Shown in pieces: positions 56,539 to 63,486 of a stretch of 64,000 bases of DNA. The notes beneath the pieces are model-generated. The model did not search any database, had not been told where the DNA came from, and was given only the letters and a program-made list of their open reading frames with translations. The first letter of the stretch is position 1; every line of letters starts with the position of its first letter. Made by a program: the position numbers and the translations under genes. Where the stretch lies: the NCBI RefSeq assembly GCF_013389455.1, contig NZ_CP058278.1:2356001-2420000 (forward strand). The letters are read 5' to 3'. The DNA comes from Flavobacterium inviolabile (GTDB lineage: Bacteria; Bacteroidota; Bacteroidia; Flavobacteriales; Flavobacteriaceae).

Positions 56539-57369
56539 TTAAATTTTTTGATCTACTTCGAAGCCGATAGTTTTTGCATATGCATTTAAGTCGATCGCTG
56601 CAACCGTTCCAATTGATTGCTGTAAGTACCTTGTAAGCTGAAGGAAAAATGTAACTAATGAATTTTCTTTGTCACTAAATGTAATACTCTCAAATTTTCT
56701 GGTCAAATAGTAATCATTGATTCTTTTATCAAAATCTTTACTGCTTGTATCTTCGGAGCCAGTATAATTAACATAGAAACTGCCATAATCAACGGCGCAG
56801 CCCATTTCAATTGTTTGCAATTTTTCTAAATTTTTCAGATGATTTTCAATCGTATTGTTATTCGCATGAGTAAACGAATTTGTGCTTGTCAGTATTCCAC
56901 CAACAATTTTTGTTAATGGACGAGCGGGCACTTCAACTCCGGCATTAATAATTTTGACAGATGTTCTTTTTAAACTTCTGACACTCTCAATTTTTTTACC
57001 TGCATATTCAAAAAAATTATCATCCCCTACTTTTCCCTGTAAGTCAGGCTTTACTTCAAAAACAGCGTATACTCCTTCTGCGGGAATATAATGAATTCCA
57101 TTCTGGGTAAAAACAAAAGGAGTGTACTGCTGATCATAAATAACTAAATCTAATTGATGACTTAAACTTCCTGTACTGTCAATTACTATTGCTTTATCAA
57201 CACAATATCTATTAGGGAGGTATTTTCTAAGCCATTCTATCCAAACATTTTCTAATGAATCTCCTTTTGATCCTGGATGTAAAATAAATTCTCTGTTGGT
57301 ATTTAATTGGGCAACCATTTGTTTTTGCAACCCACTAAATAAATCTCCTATATTAATTTTATTATTCAT
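56539..57369 (-). CDS. DUF6602-type PD-(D/E)XK nuclease, candidate CBASS effector
   Basis: 276 residues from the ATG at 57369 (MNNKINIGDLFSG), which overlaps the last codons of the Cap3 gene by 8 bp; an in-frame start 13 codons earlier is less likely. Nuclease-fold residues are visible: E40 in GDSLENVWIEWL, D74 in HQLDLVIYD, and E105-V-K107 in YAVFEVKPDL. This is the E...D...ExK arrangement of restriction-endonuclease-like nucleases, as in DUF6602 proteins. As the last gene of a CBASS operon that lacks any other obvious effector, it is the best candidate to degrade DNA after cyclic-nucleotide signalling. That role is an inference. Confidence 0.7.
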   Translation of the reverse strand: MNNKINIGDLFSGLQKQMVAQLNTNREFILHPGSKGDSLENVWIEWLRKYLPNRYCVDKAIVIDSTGSLSHQLDLVIYDQQYTPFVFTQNGIHYIPAEGVYAVFEVKPDLQGKVGDDNFFEYAGKKIESVRSLKRTSVKIINAGVEVPARPLTKIVGGILTSTNSFTHANNNTIENHLKNLEKLQTIEMGCAVDYGSFYVNYTGSEDTSSKDFDKRINDYYLTRKFESITFSDKENSLVTFFLQLTRYLQQSIGTVAAIDLNAYAKTIGFEVDQKI

Positions 57370-57826
57370 ATCTATAAATTTTATTTTTAAAGTGAACATA
57401 GAAACCAAGTTCTATTTTATTATTAGCGTAACCTATAATCAGCAATGCAGGGTTTTTGATTGATACTTCAGGATCAGCCGCAATTGACTTAACAGCTTTT
57501 ATATCTACAGCACTGGGAATTGCTAAATTATTTGGATGAGTATGCCACTCTCCGACATAATATTTTTTGGGATCTTCAGTGTAGAACTGCTTTAATTTAC
57601 TCTCAACGCCTATTGCATCTCTCTCAAACATATAGGGAGTGCCTTTGTATTTATTTGGTAAAATTGTATCTGTTATTCTAAGATGATTTTGACTTTCTGA
57701 ATAATAACCAATTAAAAAACCTCCAATTTCATTTGGATAATGTTTTTTTCCAATATCTACTAAATTGCTTATTAAATCGTCATCAATATCCAGCATTAAA
57801 CCTAATTCTTTAATTCTATACATCAA
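57362..57826 (-). CDS. cap3: CBASS Cap3, JAMM/Mov34 deconjugating protease
   Basis: 154 residues. The JAMM zinc motif is complete: E33 in NEIGGFLIG, H95-T-H97 in GEWHTHP, S105 and D108 in SAVDIKA (HxHx7Sx2D). Cap3 proteins remove the CD-NTase or other ubiquitin-like conjugates made by Cap2. The gene overlaps the end of the upstream E1/E2 gene by 4 bp (57823-57826), the typical Cap2-Cap3 coupling of type II CBASS. Confidence 0.9.
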   Translation of the reverse strand: MMYRIKELGLMLDIDDDLISNLVDIGKKHYPNEIGGFLIGYYSESQNHLRITDTILPNKYKGTPYMFERDAIGVESKLKQFYTEDPKKYYVGEWHTHPNNLAIPSAVDIKAVKSIAADPEVSIKNPALLIIGYANNKIELGFYVHFKNKIYRYE

Positions 57827-59484
57827 AATTCTTCCAATTTTATTGAAAACGCGTCATTTTCATTAGTTTGTAAAACAAAATTCCTCAGCTCCTTTCCCTG
57901 TCCCATCTTTACATTAATATTTTTTAAAGCATACTGCACTAAAACCGCAATATCGTTATAAGAAGCTTTAAATGTTGGACTCCAGCATCCCGTTGGATTA
58001 TAAACATCCTCAATGTCATTATGCAGAACATTTTCATATTGATTCATTACCCATGAATAGTGGTTGGGTTCAGTACCGCATACTAATTCCTGTGCATTAT
58101 TTGTAATTGACAACGTTATCAATTGGCGAAGGATCAGCTGGCTTAATATATGCATTAAGTCATTATCAGTAGAACAATCGAAAATTAAATCATATTCATC
58201 CAGTGCTTTCTCCAGACCCTTTAAATGATGTGGGCGGTTAAAAACCTTAGTACGCACATGAAAAAATTGATTATCCATAATCTGTACTTCTACAAATGGA
58301 GAAATTGAAGTGAGAATTTCGTTCAGCTCGTTCACTTTATTTGTTATCCCATTGGAGAAAGCATACTCCGAACGGCATACATTTTCAGGCTCTTTAACGT
58401 CATGATCAATTAGGTGAATATTTTTGCATCCTCCCCTTATCAGCGTTGTTGCGACCATACTGCCGATTGCTCCGGTTCCAATTATCAATATTTTGGCATT
58501 TGCTATCTCATCAGTGAATTTCCCTCTTCCAAAAAAATATTCGTAGGAGCTATTCCTCGTCATCATCCAATCAATTTTCTGATCTATAAAAAAACCTCCC
58601 CACATCTGATTTATTTTTTCATACCCGATTGGGAATCTGCCAAATTCAAGCATTGCTGCCTGCCAATGTATTTCAGTCCCAGAAATTTTATATCCAATAA
58701 TTAATGGAATTGGCGCACCAATTGCCTTTTGATTATTTCGCTCCAATCCGTGAAGAAATGTAAAAAATCCTGCAGGAACTTTATCTTGCAGATCCTTCCA
58801 GTTATTTATGATAAAACGGGTTTGAACCACGGGAGGCTTTTCCATAAATACGTATACACCAAATTGGGTATTAGCTGAAGGTAAATTAGCATAAGTTGAA
58901 CTCCACTTTGAAGATGCTATTATTTTGCTGTACTTGTCCTTAAAATTCAGGATGATATGGTTATTAATTTTTGTATCGTAAAATAATCCTGAATGAATTT
59001 GAGCAAAATCAAAAAAACCAAAATCACCATCTTGGAATTTATGCTCTGTATCAGTAAAGATAAATGAGTGATGCTCATCTTTATATTTTACAGGCTGCAT
59101 AATTATATGCTCATAATGCTCATCATGCTCTTTATTCACAAAATACCGCTGAATCCATCTCTTCAGTGAGGAAAAGTCTATTTCGAGTTTCTTTTTTACA
59201 TCAAAACTATGTGCGGTGTGGATGCAGATTGAACCATCCCCCATAACATGACCATATTCTATTAATTCTTTATTATAAAAAGTAATAGCTTCTGCGTTTA
59301 ATCTTTTCAGAGGATATTCAGGAAGAACTTTTACAGCAAAGCTCAAAGCATCTCCAATTTCATTGTAAATAACTTTGACCTTTCCAATAGCATTTAAATC
59401 CTGGTCAACAACAAAAGGCTCTTCAATAAGAACCTGATCGAGACTGCTAATAATGCTCTGAACTTTCTTCAACTTATCTTCCAT
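57823..59484 (-). CDS. cap2: CBASS Cap2, fused E2-E1 ubiquitin-transfer enzyme
   Basis: 553 residues. The N-terminal E2-like domain has the catalytic Cys87 in GDGSICIHTA. A linker leads to a ThiF/E1 adenylation domain with ILIIGTGAIGSMVATTLIRGG (ATP-binding loop) and the aspartate-rich LIDHDVKEPENVCRSEYAF. The E1 catalytic Cys is probably C500 in PTGCWSPTF. In type II CBASS, Cap2 conjugates the C terminus of the CD-NTase to targets and primes it for activity. It is 2 bp downstream of the CD-NTase gene. Confidence 0.92.
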   Translation of the reverse strand: MEDKLKKVQSIISSLDQVLIEEPFVVDQDLNAIGKVKVIYNEIGDALSFAVKVLPEYPLKRLNAEAITFYNKELIEYGHVMGDGSICIHTAHSFDVKKKLEIDFSSLKRWIQRYFVNKEHDEHYEHIIMQPVKYKDEHHSFIFTDTEHKFQDGDFGFFDFAQIHSGLFYDTKINNHIILNFKDKYSKIIASSKWSSTYANLPSANTQFGVYVFMEKPPVVQTRFIINNWKDLQDKVPAGFFTFLHGLERNNQKAIGAPIPLIIGYKISGTEIHWQAAMLEFGRFPIGYEKINQMWGGFFIDQKIDWMMTRNSSYEYFFGRGKFTDEIANAKILIIGTGAIGSMVATTLIRGGCKNIHLIDHDVKEPENVCRSEYAFSNGITNKVNELNEILTSISPFVEVQIMDNQFFHVRTKVFNRPHHLKGLEKALDEYDLIFDCSTDNDLMHILSQLILRQLITLSITNNAQELVCGTEPNHYSWVMNQYENVLHNDIEDVYNPTGCWSPTFKASYNDIAVLVQYALKNINVKMGQGKELRNFVLQTNENDAFSIKLEEF

Positions 59485-59486
59485 AA

Positions 59487-60467
59487 TTATCCAAAACGTT
59501 CAGTTTTAGGAGGAGTAGAATAAAACCCGTTTCCTTTGTTTTCATATTTGTTATCACTTTCTTCTTCCTCAATAAATTTTGGGTTTTCTGGGAAGTAAGT
59601 TTTGATATTTTCATCGTTATCTTCAATTCTTTCAAGCATATTCTTCATATCATTAGAGAGAGTGTGTCTCTCAGAAACAGTCAGAGTATCAATTAAATCA
59701 TTAGAGCTGTTTCCAGGATCCTTCAATGAAAAACTTTCGCCGGTAACTTCGTCACGGATATATTCTAATACTGTTTCTAATTTACTCCACAAATTCCCAG
59801 ATACATCCTTATTATCAAAAGCTTTAATAGTAATCAATTCTAAAAAGAAAGATTTCGTAGGATAATTGTATTTGGTATTTTTCCAAACTTTTAGCAGACG
59901 AATAATTTTCCTAATGGAATCTTTTTCTTTAGTTGCTCTATCTTTAATGTTTTTGATTTGAGCCTCCACATTGGTTTTAATTCTCTCACTTCCCTGATCA
60001 AAATTTCCATATTTGTAATAAACGTACAGATTAAGATTTTCATCATCTTTGTATTTATCCTGGCTTAGTTCACGTCCAGGCACAACATCAATCTTTACAA
60101 CATCACCGTCTTCATCTGCAAAAAACTCAATACCAATGGAAACTTTTTGTTTTCTGACACTTGCTTCATCCTTATATTTATCATATAAAAAATCAAAGAC
60201 GTCTTCGTACATCTCCTTTAATGTGCCATTTGAACCAAATGCATTTCTCTTGAAAGGACAAACCATATCAAAATCAAACTTGATATTCACTGCCGTATTT
60301 TTTGCATAGGAACCCGAATTAAAAGGTGAATAAATACTCTCTTCGTATTTCTTTTCCAAAGCTTCCTTAACTTCTTTATTTTTTTCTTTATGCTTTTTTA
60401 AAAGCTGTTCTTCTTTGGTAATTTGATGTGTTTTAATTACCGAATCTAAATGTAAACTCTTATCCAT
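59487..60467 (-). CDS. CBASS CD-NTase (cGAS/DncV-like nucleotidyltransferase)
   Basis: 326 residues. Polymerase-beta-like nucleotidyltransferase motifs are present: G52-S53 in NSGSYAKNTAV, the metal-binding pair D65 and D67 in KFDFDMVCPF, and the third Asp D127 in VVKIDVVPGR. The C terminus ends in KTERFG with a terminal glycine, as needed for Cap2-mediated conjugation. It should make a cyclic di- or trinucleotide when phage infection is sensed; the product and clade cannot be read by eye. Co-transcribed with cap2 and cap3. Confidence 0.92.
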   Translation of the reverse strand: MDKSLHLDSVIKTHQITKEEQLLKKHKEKNKEVKEALEKKYEESIYSPFNSGSYAKNTAVNIKFDFDMVCPFKRNAFGSNGTLKEMYEDVFDFLYDKYKDEASVRKQKVSIGIEFFADEDGDVVKIDVVPGRELSQDKYKDDENLNLYVYYKYGNFDQGSERIKTNVEAQIKNIKDRATKEKDSIRKIIRLLKVWKNTKYNYPTKSFFLELITIKAFDNKDVSGNLWSKLETVLEYIRDEVTGESFSLKDPGNSSNDLIDTLTVSERHTLSNDMKNMLERIEDNDENIKTYFPENPKFIEEEESDNKYENKGNGFYSTPPKTERFG

Positions 60468-60474
60468 AATATTT

Positions 60475-60789
60475 TTATTTTATTGCTTTCATTGATATTA
60501 AATTATCCAAATTATCTTTTGGTGTAGCATTTGCTTCACTTCTTAAATATTCTTTTCCTATTCCTTTTATATATGTTACTCTTGATCTAATAGACCAACC
60601 TGGATAATTCCAAACTACAGTTCTAATAATGTATCCCTTTTTCAATAATTCAATTGTATTGGCTTCAGTATTTTTTTCACCCATATTCCATGAATCACCA
60701 TCATTTACTGGATGTAACATTACGTGCGTAATATTATCTTTTGAATCTTTCCAAACACCAGATATTACATAATTTGCTGATTTACTCAT
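60475..60789 (-). CDS. DUF3892 protein, first gene of CBASS operon
   Basis: 104 residues from the ATG at 60789 (MSKSANYVISGVWKDSKDN); a longer frame to 60822 would run through the conserved intergenic motif and is rejected. YVISGVWKDSKDNITHVMLH matches DUF3892 (a small beta-rich domain); RSRVTYIKGIGKEYLRSEAN follows. It lies 7 bp before the CD-NTase gene. DUF3892 proteins have no established function. Its place inside the operon suggests a sensor, regulator or CD-NTase partner role, by inference only. Confidence 0.75.
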   Translation of the reverse strand: MSKSANYVISGVWKDSKDNITHVMLHPVNDGDSWNMGEKNTEANTIELLKKGYIIRTVVWNYPGWSIRSRVTYIKGIGKEYLRSEANATPKDNLDNLISMKAIK

Positions 60790-60814
60790 AATATATATTT
60801 TAGTTAAAACGTTC

Positions 60815-60896
60815 TTATACATTGTAATGCTACATAAATTTCATAAATTGCCACTGATATGGAAATTTTTAAAAAATTTTAAGCATTACAGTATAA
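60815..60896. promoter_or_regulatory. divergent shared promoter/operator of CBASS and regulatory operon
   Basis: On the minus strand (60831-60815) the motif reads AGCATTACA AT GTATAA; on the plus strand (60882-60896) it reads AGCATTACA GTATAA. Each is preceded by AAATTT. Thus the same element points outward toward both operons: 26 bp before the DUF3892 start and directly before the ATG at 60897. TAnnTTTG boxes are absent in both directions, so a dedicated activator or sigma-like protein probably reads this element. Confidence 0.65.
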
Positions 60897-61499
60897 ATGA
60901 AGTCAGATAATAGAATTGTTGCATCATTTGATGAGAAATGCAAAGCAATTCAGGAGATTTACACTCCTGAATTTTATGCTGATCTTTTCAAGCACGCTAT
61001 AATAAGACTTAAAACTGTTTTTGGAATCAAGTACAACCATGATAAGGGATTTAGAGGCATTATGGTTGAGGATATGATCAATGATACTATTGAAGCCTTC
61101 TTTAAAGATGGTGGCAGAAATTGGTATCCAGAGAAATTCCCTGATTTCCGAATGCAGATAATAAGTGCCTTAGATAGTGTAATTTCAAATACATTAAATG
61201 CTGAGCTTGACAAGGCGAACGAAACATTTGAAATTTTAGAGAATGATATTGAAATGTCTTTTGACGATTCCGACTATCAATCATTACTATCTATATGCCA
61301 CGATGAATTAACCGCTATGGGTGCAACAGATTACGAAATATTACTGTTCGAACCATACATAATCAATGGCATGAAAAGAAATGATTTGTCTGAACTCTTC
61401 GGAATCAGCAACGAAGAACTGACAAATATAAAAAAGCGGCTTGATCGCAAATTACCATATATAAAAGAAAAACTGAAAGTGTTGAATTATGAAAAATAA
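60897..61499 (+). CDS. sigma-factor-like transcription regulator of CBASS locus
   Basis: 200 residues. The C-terminal about 50 residues are a sigma-70 region 4-like helix-turn-helix (ELTAMGATDYEILLFEPYI, then NDLSELFGISNEELTNIKKRLDRKL). The N-terminal about 120 residues are helical (FRGIMVEDMINDTIEAFFKDGGRNWYPEK), with the DxINDTIEAFF pattern like region 2. It lies divergent to the CBASS operon and overlaps the next gene by 11 bp. It may direct transcription from the shared motif at 60815-60896; that is inference from position and fold. Confidence 0.7.
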   Translation: MKSDNRIVASFDEKCKAIQEIYTPEFYADLFKHAIIRLKTVFGIKYNHDKGFRGIMVEDMINDTIEAFFKDGGRNWYPEKFPDFRMQIISALDSVISNTLNAELDKANETFEILENDIEMSFDDSDYQSLLSICHDELTAMGATDYEILLFEPYIINGMKRNDLSELFGISNEELTNIKKRLDRKLPYIKEKLKVLNYEK

Positions 61500-61893
61500 C
61501 TTCATCAAAAAGATAGACAAGGCAATTATCTCCCAAATTATTGAAGGTGATTCTAGTACTTATGATGAAATCCTTAAAGAGGAAGGTTTTGACATAAAAG
61601 AGATTGAAACTTATGCTCTAAAGAATTTTCGCAAGCACTCATTTCTGTTAAAAGCACATATAAATAAACAGAGAGATACTGATTTATTAGAAAAAGCTTC
61701 TGCATTATTGCAAAATGCAATCTCGAAAAATATTGATAAGCCGATTAGTTATTTAAAATCTTTAATTGCAAATAATCAGTTTCAGGTTCAATATAGAAAT
61801 TTAGACAGCTTGGGAATTGATGAGATTAAAGAAATAATTAAAGACCAGAATTTATTAGAACTTCTGGAGCAATTGGAAAATGATCAAAAATAG
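61489..61893 (+). CDS. small helical protein overlapping sigma-like and protease genes
   Basis: 134 residues, entirely predicted helical (KKIDKAIISQIIEGDSSTYDEILKEEGF; LLEKASALLQNAISKN). It overlaps the sigma-like gene by 11 bp and the protease gene by 14 bp. Between a sigma-like factor and an ImmA/IrrE protease, a natural role is that of an inhibitor (anti-sigma) removed by cleavage. Sequence alone does not prove it. No known family recognised. Confidence 0.65.
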   Translation: MKNNFIKKIDKAIISQIIEGDSSTYDEILKEEGFDIKEIETYALKNFRKHSFLLKAHINKQRDTDLLEKASALLQNAISKNIDKPISYLKSLIANNQFQVQYRNLDSLGIDEIKEIIKDQNLLELLEQLENDQK

Positions 61894-62689
61894 ACGCGGT
61901 TCCAATAGAGCTAAAGCTCTTCTGGAAGAAATTGGTTTCGATGAGATTACTGATATTCCTATGGATATTTTTGCTGCCGGTCTTGGAGCAACTTTAATAG
62001 AAGAAAAATTACCAAACTCGGACGGTAAAATCATTAGAGGCAATTCTAAAACATTGATTAAAGTGAACTCGGATATTGAGTTCGAAGAAAGAAAGCGTTT
62101 TACAGCTGCGCATGAAATTGGACATTATCTGCTTCATGACAAACTAGATTTGGAAGTTCATAATGAAACATCCAATACCCTGAATTGGTTTAATACTGCT
62201 GAGAACCAAGCGAAAAAAGGAATTCAAGAATGGGAAGCCAATGATTTTGCATCAGAACTCTTAATGCCTGAAGCTGTAATAAGAAAAGCAGTATATAGAA
62301 AAAAATTCTCACCTGATTTAGTGAAGGAACTATCCGTAAGATTTAAAACCAGTTTAACCTCCATTATTTATAGATTACTATCATTAAATATCTATCCTCT
62401 GTTTGTAGTTTTTATTAATAATGGACAAGTTAGATATTGGAGTAAATCAGATGGTTATTGGATAAAAATTAAAGAAATTACGAAATTACCTCCGCCTGAA
62501 GATTCAGTTGCCCAGGAATACATTGATGGTAAATATGAGTTTTTGTATTCGGGAAAAGAAAAGGCCCAATCCATCTATAAATCAACATGGTTTGAATTAA
62601 GGGACGATGAAGATGATTGTGATTTCTTCGAATACTGCATTCCATACAAACAGCTGAAAACAATAATAAGTGTCGTTTGGGAAGAATAA
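61880..62689 (+). CDS. ImmA/IrrE-family metallopeptidase (CapP-like)
   Basis: 269 residues. The zinc motif is H78-E-I-G-H82 in FTAAHEIGHYLLHD, with the third ligand probably E119 in QEWEANDFASELLMP. This is the COG2856/ImmA/IrrE layout, in which proteases such as ImmA and CapP cleave a cognate repressor. A C-terminal alpha/beta domain (about 165-269) may sense a signal, as the GAF-like domain does in IrrE. In CBASS, CapP usually pairs with the HTH repressor CapH; here a sigma-like protein and a small protein take that place. Confidence 0.85.
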   Translation: MIKNRRGSNRAKALLEEIGFDEITDIPMDIFAAGLGATLIEEKLPNSDGKIIRGNSKTLIKVNSDIEFEERKRFTAAHEIGHYLLHDKLDLEVHNETSNTLNWFNTAENQAKKGIQEWEANDFASELLMPEAVIRKAVYRKKFSPDLVKELSVRFKTSLTSIIYRLLSLNIYPLFVVFINNGQVRYWSKSDGYWIKIKEITKLPPPEDSVAQEYIDGKYEFLYSGKEKAQSIYKSTWFELRDDEDDCDFFEYCIPYKQLKTIISVVWEE

Positions 62690-62742: not shown

Positions 62743-63486
62743 ATGACTATCTGCGAAAATGAACCAAAAACATGGAAAGATTTACAAAACAAAGCTGCGG
62801 AGATTTTAACAGTCTGCGGCTATCTTTGTGAAACAGAAAAAGAGATAATTACAGTAAGGGAAAAAGTTAATGTAGATGTATATGCAGAAATGAACAGCCA
62901 GATATCTAGAAGCATAATCATCTGTGAATGTAAATTCTGGAAAAAAAAAGTTCCAAAACATGTTGTACACTCTTTCCGTACAGTAGTAAACGACTACGGA
63001 GCCAATTACGGACTTATAATTTCAAAGATGGGTTTTCAGAGCGGGGCATTTGACGCAATTAAAAGCACCAACATTCAATTAGTTAATTGGCCTGAGTTTG
63101 AAAATACCTTTAGGGCGGAATGGATCAGAAAAAAATTAATTGCCATTTCTAAGACAACAAAACCTTTATACGATTATGTAAGTGTTGGTTTTATGGTATT
63201 TTTTAAAGAACAGCTTTCTAAACTTTCTCAAGATGAACTTGAAAAATATCACTACTTGACGGCAAAATATTTTAATCCAGTTTTTGCCTCAGCAAATATT
63301 GATTACAAAAATGAAGAAACAAAAGAATTTGACATTGAAATGTTTGATAATTTTCTACCTCATTATATTAGAGAATTAAATATTAATTGTACTTCATATG
63401 AAAGCTATTTTCTTAATTTAGAAAAAATTTGTGCCGAAGGATTGATTGATTTTGACATCTTATTTAAAGAACAATTGCGTCGATAA
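62743..63486 (+). CDS. Mrr-like PD-(D/E)XK restriction endonuclease
   Basis: 247 residues. The N-terminal about 125 residues are a restriction-endonuclease-like domain: E20 in KAAEILTVCGY, D45 in VNVDVYAE, E62-C-K64 in IIICECKFW, then VVHSFRTVVNDYGANYGLIISKMGFQSGA, the Mrr-cat pattern. The C-terminal half is helical and unrecognised. It starts 54 bp after the protease gene with its own A-rich leader, so it may be co-transcribed. It may be a separate Mrr-like defence protein or an additional nuclease of the same regulon. Confidence 0.8.
   Translation: MTICENEPKTWKDLQNKAAEILTVCGYLCETEKEIITVREKVNVDVYAEMNSQISRSIIICECKFWKKKVPKHVVHSFRTVVNDYGANYGLIISKMGFQSGAFDAIKSTNIQLVNWPEFENTFRAEWIRKKLIAISKTTKPLYDYVSVGFMVFFKEQLSKLSQDELEKYHYLTAKYFNPVFASANIDYKNEETKEFDIEMFDNFLPHYIRELNINCTSYESYFLNLEKICAEGLIDFDILFKEQLRR

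Follow-up and report, generated by a model that had tools for sequence, protein, structure and literature searches.

A type II CBASS operon of Flavobacterium inviolabile faces, across a short intergenic region, three overlapping genes on the opposite strand. What do these genes encode, and how could they control the operon beside them? The window analyzed comprises 64,000 nucleotides of contig NZ_CP058278.1, part of a 3.9-Mb genome that consists of a single contig. A preliminary description had read the three genes as a cassette of a sigma-like protein, a small protein and an ImmA/IrrE protease beside CBASS, and the overlapping reading frames and their domain matches confirmed this observation. 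Gene order, the fold class of the sigma-like protein, the conservation of the trio and a pair of promoter-like elements could be established by computation. We consider it likely that the trio is a protease-gated sigma switch, in which CapP cuts an anti-sigma factor and the freed local sigma factor transcribes the immune operon and its own genes.

Gene content of the locus and its relatives

According to the list of open reading frames, the trio spans positions 60897-62689 of the plus strand, each gene overlapping the next. The first gene (60897-61499) encodes a sigma-70/ECF-like protein of 200 residues with regions 2 and 4 (TIGR02937, AF2 model and PDB matches), the second (61489-61893) a helical protein of 134 residues (AF2; Pfam without HTH), the proposed anti-sigma factor and CapP substrate, and the third (61880-62689) a CapP-like ImmA/IrrE zinc protease. 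The latter matched PADLOC capP (1e-60), Pfam Peptidase_M78 (1e-18) and PDB entry 7t5t (8e-10) and carries the CapP-type HExxH sequence as HEIGH from residue 78, just as had been claimed for it earlier. Searched at E ≤ 1, Pfam and PADLOC showed in it neither Lon nor SAVED, the domains expected of a CalpL-type protease.

The divergent operon on the minus strand was assigned to type II CBASS, as PADLOC found CD-NTase, Cap2, Cap3 and effector genes together. Its first gene encodes a DUF3892 protein (60475-60789; Pfam DUF3892, 1e-9), followed by the CD-NTase, i.e., the CBASS cyclase (59487-60467; PADLOC Cyclase, 1e-81), Cap2 (57823-59484; PADLOC E1-E2, 2e-210), the Cap3 JAB isopeptidase (57362-57826; PADLOC JAB, 7e-51) and a NucC-type effector nuclease (56539-57408; PADLOC NucC effector, 4e-95; Pfam DUF6602, 2e-29). 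Judging by gene spacing, the CBASS genes are probably transcribed as one unit. The position of the CBASS-side promoter-like element described below suggests that the DUF3892 protein starts at 60789 instead of 60822; in relatives, it has 104 (loci L004-L006, L010) or 115 residues (L002, L003). The DUF3892 protein is the first gene product of different trio-facing operons (NucC CBASS, patatin CBASS, and one with a 419-residue protein) and hence may be part of the control and not of CBASS. Directly after CapP lies a Mrr-type restriction endonuclease gene (62743-63486), also present in L002-L006 and L010; none was seen at this position in distant trios. It may represent an extra effector of the trio operon.

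In public genome records the three genes occurred in identical order at 13/13 related loci, with CapP running off the contig in L007. With the window's own genome included, the sigma-like protein was detected in 15/398 genomes of the genus, 3/397 of the family and 4/395 of the phylum. At loci L015-L033, CapP was next but one after the sigma gene in 19/19; within L016-L033, 8 of 18 loci have a sigma-like protein that repeats one of the named set. The small protein of these loci gave a BLAST match to that of the window in 17/19, the remaining two (L018, L019) having ORFs of 142 and 140 residues at this place.

The trio is constant and the facing operons vary. A NucC CBASS faces it in the window, L002-L006, L010 and L038, a CBASS with a patatin phospholipase in L007 (the phospholipase of L008 is 89% identical), and a CBASS with a 2TM effector in L041 (97% identical in L042 and L043). 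Other partners are a Pycsar-like pair in L039 (PycTM at 1e-10, plus a cyclase match slightly above its cut-off), multiubiquitin/E2 and E1 genes in L036, an MBL-like protein with an E1-E2-JAB fusion in L037, and an uncharacterized family of 416-426 residues in L009, L011 and L035 (23-34% identical).

Copies of the 416-426-residue family lie at L009:7950-9209, L011:8462-9742, L035:7849-9099 and L039:13198-14448 and are 21-61% identical. The L009 copy matched nothing in PADLOC and nothing in Pfam above cut-off, and the family is a candidate new defence gene. Just across the promoter region of several trios, of different sigma subfamilies, we observed a basic protein of 57 residues (MA.N.P..., ending in GVRKEK; 66-95% identical) at L009:9357-9530, where it follows DUF3892, L011:9723-9896, L012:9730-9990, L035:9357-9530 and L077:8898-9071. 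A second CD-NTase-like gene, 30-34% identical to the window's cyclase, follows NucC at L004:4585-5640, L010:4585-5640 and L038:14773-15828; the L004 copy had no Pfam match at 0.01. Two cyclase-like genes are present also in L042 and L043.

A survey of Bacteroidota was entered through PADLOC capP at E ≤ 1e-20, independently of sigma. CapP was detected in 44/395 Bacteroidota genomes and 0/14 control genomes, at no fewer than 30 loci, and those listed were analyzed. In 26 of the 30 listed loci (partial L064, L066 and L073 counted), a candidate gene precedes the small protein or CapP; we chose these candidates from ORF lists and took CapP positions from search coordinates. TIGR02937 matched 24/26 of these candidates at E ≤ 0.05 (best 2e-19). 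Loci without an upstream sigma candidate were L053, which has an XRE protein, L054, L062 and L067, which lies at a contig end.

Flanks were wide enough in 22 of the 26 sigma-type loci (19/20 extracted stretches plus L051, L057 and L060; not L064, L066, L072 and L073). In 14/22 the trio is divergent from immune genes, namely CBASS (L051, L077, L080, L081, L084, L086, L089), ubiquitin-like genes (L078, L079, L082, L083, L087, L090; in L082 and L083 the call is based on weak matches to ThiF and JAB, with a ubiquitin-like match added in L082) or MBL/E1-E2-JAB (L060). One more, L095, has Cas6 downstream of the trio. At the remaining seven of the 22 (L057, L088, L091-L094, L096) nothing was recognized among those neighbors that were scanned. 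Thus a trio found mostly away from defence loci, which would have refuted the original proposal, was not what we saw.

The small protein and its relation to CapH

The AF2 model of the window's small protein consists of helices plus a loop (residues 96-109) with the sequence QYRNLD at residues 101-106. In this protein no HTH was matched in Pfam at E ≤ 1, and HTH-named Pfam families matched 0/23 small proteins of the Bacteroidota CapP sample at E ≤ 0.05 (L053, L054, L062, L064, L067, L069 and L071 are not among the 23). Thirteen Pfam families were matched by one of the 23 each, the best being a phage terminase small-subunit family (0.0016). The XRE helix-turn-helix of CapH was likewise not detected by Pfam, and the small-protein family profile missed 7t5u, whose 69-residue HTH chain we take to be CapH; 7t5u was found in the search with the XRE protein of L053. 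These results are in agreement with the earlier idea that a sigma-like and a small helical protein replace the HTH repressor. Structure matches of the AF2 model gave no fold support for an anti-sigma factor.

The trio could also be an ordinary CapH and CapP derepression circuit, with the small protein as a DNA-binding repressor that CapP removes and the sigma-like gene as an accessory activator. The PADLOC capH model matched the window's small protein at 7e-6 over residues 7-130, the tail of the protein is weakly similar to XRE CapH tails, and in L053 the protein directly before CapP is indeed of the XRE type and resembles phage repressors, 7t5u and DdrO. However, the capH model (PDLC04142), seen on 61489-61893, L044, L045, L050 and L053, matched the XRE protein (1e-24) and small proteins without an HTH match (down to 2e-13) alike, so that capH calls in Bacteroidota can mislead, naming proteins without an HTH. 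Moreover, L053 has no sigma-like ORF upstream, and HTH and sigma therefore look like alternatives, albeit from one example. Taken with the absence of HTH-named families from the 23 small proteins and an AF2 model of no recognized DNA-binding fold, which by itself excludes nothing, this makes derepression by the small protein unlikely.

The likeness of the tails was assessed with a profile built from the tails of 29 XRE proteins related to that of L053 (putative "XRE CapH") and run on 808 ORFs. Small proteins came near the top at the QYRNLD-type motif with weak E values of 0.02 to 16 (window 16). After grouping into 680 clusters, small-protein clusters, recognized by a rule that missed the small proteins of L059 and L067, made up 3 of the top 10 (P = 0.001) and 5 of the top 30 (P = 0.0004), and P ranged from 0.005 to 0.0004 across five cut-offs, all uncorrected; at least one of the five counted clusters, L033, matched outside the motif. 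According to PMC10904395, the cleavage loop of DdrO comprises residues 116-121, begins with E-L-R-G and requires Arg118. The small-protein motif resembles both CapH tails and this loop by a weak test, single-protein E being 0.02 at best, and its Arg is kept in most trio small proteins and replaced in L035, L048 and L061. From such sequence likeness, the small protein may be a CapP-cut CapH tail kept on a different, sigma-binding front part. Identity correlations were 0.67 for sigma and small protein, 0.63 for sigma and CapP, and highest, 0.75, for small protein and CapP; in L035, identity was 24% for sigma and 42% for the small protein. The sigma/small-protein value is hardly above that of sigma/CapP, and these figures count against the sigma switch.

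The sigma-like protein and the paired promoter-like elements

The case for a protease-gated sigma switch is strongest in the identity of the sigma-like protein and in the promoter pair. TIGR02937 (sigma70-ECF) matched residues 9-186 of the window's protein at 7e-5, under the curated cut-off. Its AF2 model shows two helical domains (helices 11-114 and 124-195), and over residues 10-197 it is of the sigma type, with sigma factors as its PDB matches; the family profile gave weak matches to sigma-H (0.004) and SigA (0.7). Regions 2 and 4 thus lie within one short protein, as in ECF factors, at a TIGR02937 score below the curated cut-off, and the sigma region 2/4-like segments reported for this protein correspond to both sigma domains. 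In L065, L068 and L071, the counterparts preceding CapP exceed the curated ECF cut-off.

The intergenic region (60790-60896), put forward previously for a reporter assay, was found to contain the promoter-like element TGG-N19-AGC twice, in divergent orientation. The trio-side copy (60860-60889, plus strand; TGGAAATTT ... AGCATTAC) ends 7 bases ahead of the sigma-gene ATG, which suggests a nearly leaderless trio mRNA in this sigma subfamily; in other subfamilies the distance to the start is larger. The CBASS-side copy (60824-60853, minus strand; TGGCAATTT ... AGCATTAC) stands head to head with it, 6 bases separating the two TGG.

Among 36 intergenic regions extracted ahead of sigma genes, with all four first triplets allowed on both sides, the head-to-head pair was present in 25 (about 16 non-duplicate), and in 20/36 with TGG only. 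L036 has a single copy, and 10/36 regions, nearly all of other sigma subfamilies, have none. From these we picked 16 representatives after the motif had been seen, leaving out 9 near-duplicates with the pair and 11 regions without it, and relaxed the first triplet post hoc to AGG/CGG on the plus side and AGG/CGG/TGA on the minus side. In this set all 16 regions have the pair at gap 19, and none has one at gaps 14-18 or 20-24; first-order resampling under the identical relaxed rule, with 2000 resamples for each region, put the chance of a pair at 6e-5 per region. The two copies lie 1 to 9 bases apart, with the inner spacing constant at 19, the pattern expected of two sigma promoters. For core polymerase binding and transcription by the sigma-like protein, the paired elements provide indirect support.

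Genome-wide, ATGCTN{13,15}AAWTKCCA had three exact matches, two at this locus and one with another spacing, so among exact matches the consensus at 19-base spacing occurs in this genome only here. A backwards control pattern had 2 matches vs. 3; the pattern alone is therefore not rare, and the spacing and pairing are. If as many as 3 mismatches are allowed, the window has no excess of matches over chance (11 vs. 9), the only two perfect ones being this pair.

That the sigma-like protein has ceased to work with RNA polymerase and instead occupies the paired elements as a two-domain DNA-binding repressor (or activator) appears quite improbable. The weak sigma-model match of the window's protein, the head-to-head arrangement, in which both elements could be occupied, and the end of the trio-side element 7 bases before the start codon would suit such a role. 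Against it are the retention of both sigma domains, the counterparts above the curated ECF cut-off, and an inner spacing fixed at 19 around a varying center. Lastly, it is very improbable that the elements, an inverted repeat as a region, form the two halves of an operator bound by some dimeric regulator, with the trio acting elsewhere, as one dimer is expected to show the opposite of halves 1 to 9 bases apart with a constant 19-base spacing.

A proposed switch and its comparison with known systems

The protease-gated sigma switch would operate as follows. In the unstressed cell, the small protein would bind the ECF-type sigma factor and block it. Upon phage attack or DNA damage, CapP would become active, most likely through ssDNA, a stimulus reported for both CapP and PprI, and would cut the small protein within the QYRNLD-holding loop. 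The freed sigma factor would join RNA polymerase and initiate at the two back-to-back TGG-N19-AGC promoters, one directed to the CBASS operon and the other to the trio, and the trio's self-transcription would provide positive feedback and fresh inhibitor for a reset. We infer the sigma activity, the anti-sigma binding, the cleavage and the trigger; the anti-sigma role, the cleavage and the trigger are motivated but unproven. The economical model of the preliminary description has the protease remove the small protein and the freed sigma transcribe CBASS and itself. The computational results agree with it and support it as the best model, short of proof.

For Bacteroidota as a whole we lean towards the view that the usual partner of CapP is a sigma/anti-sigma pair and not a repressor. 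The result would be a widespread, mobile, damage-triggered switch serving diverse immune operons (CBASS, Pycsar, ubiquitin-like, MBL, perhaps CRISPR) via private head-to-head promoters, its anti-sigmas having kept only the CapH cleavage tail. Such a compact sigma switch, if true, could account for the turning on of many immune operons in Bacteroidota. Known CapP circuits lift repression, and the trio would add activation that feeds back positively and a polymerase specificity of its own. The common TGG-N19-AGC element offers a sequence handle for more genes under such control.

The controller formed by CapH and CapP is reportedly that of Lau et al. 2022; PMC13373217 also describes it. With it the trio shares an IrrE protease of the CapP type encoded right after a small protein, a place beside CBASS and ubiquitin-like (Bub) operons, and a small-protein tail weakly like XRE CapH tails. 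It differs in the extra sigma factor gene, in a small protein without a recognized HTH, and in a predicted output of activation by freed sigma instead of derepression. The titles and abstract openings listed in searches of open-licence papers contained no sigma factor paired with CapP, a scope that does not establish its absence from print. PprI/IrrE, per PMC10904395, is stimulated by ssDNA and cuts a DdrO loop needing an Arg. The trio has an IrrE-type protease and a regulator loop with Arg as well, its cleavage being only predicted, whereas DdrO is an HTH repressor and no sigma factor takes part. CapK and CapS, as described in PMC13373217, are a kinase and a STAS-wHTH repressor that respond to DNA damage beside varied immune operons. 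They are likewise a controller module adjoining such operons, with DNA-damage responsiveness putative for the trio, yet their parts, though resembling anti-sigma parts, act on a repressor and not via a sigma factor. The CalpL/CalpT/CalpS system of type III CRISPR is, according to PMC11417357, a protease - anti-sigma - ECF sigma cascade in which CalpL, a cA4-activated Lon protease with a SAVED domain, cuts CalpT. The trio shares the proposed order of this cascade in antiviral defence, but has an IrrE/CapP metalloprotease, a different small protein and a position beside the immune operon that it putatively controls. On the best reading, the trio stands between CapH and CapP on one side and CalpL/CalpT/CalpS on the other.
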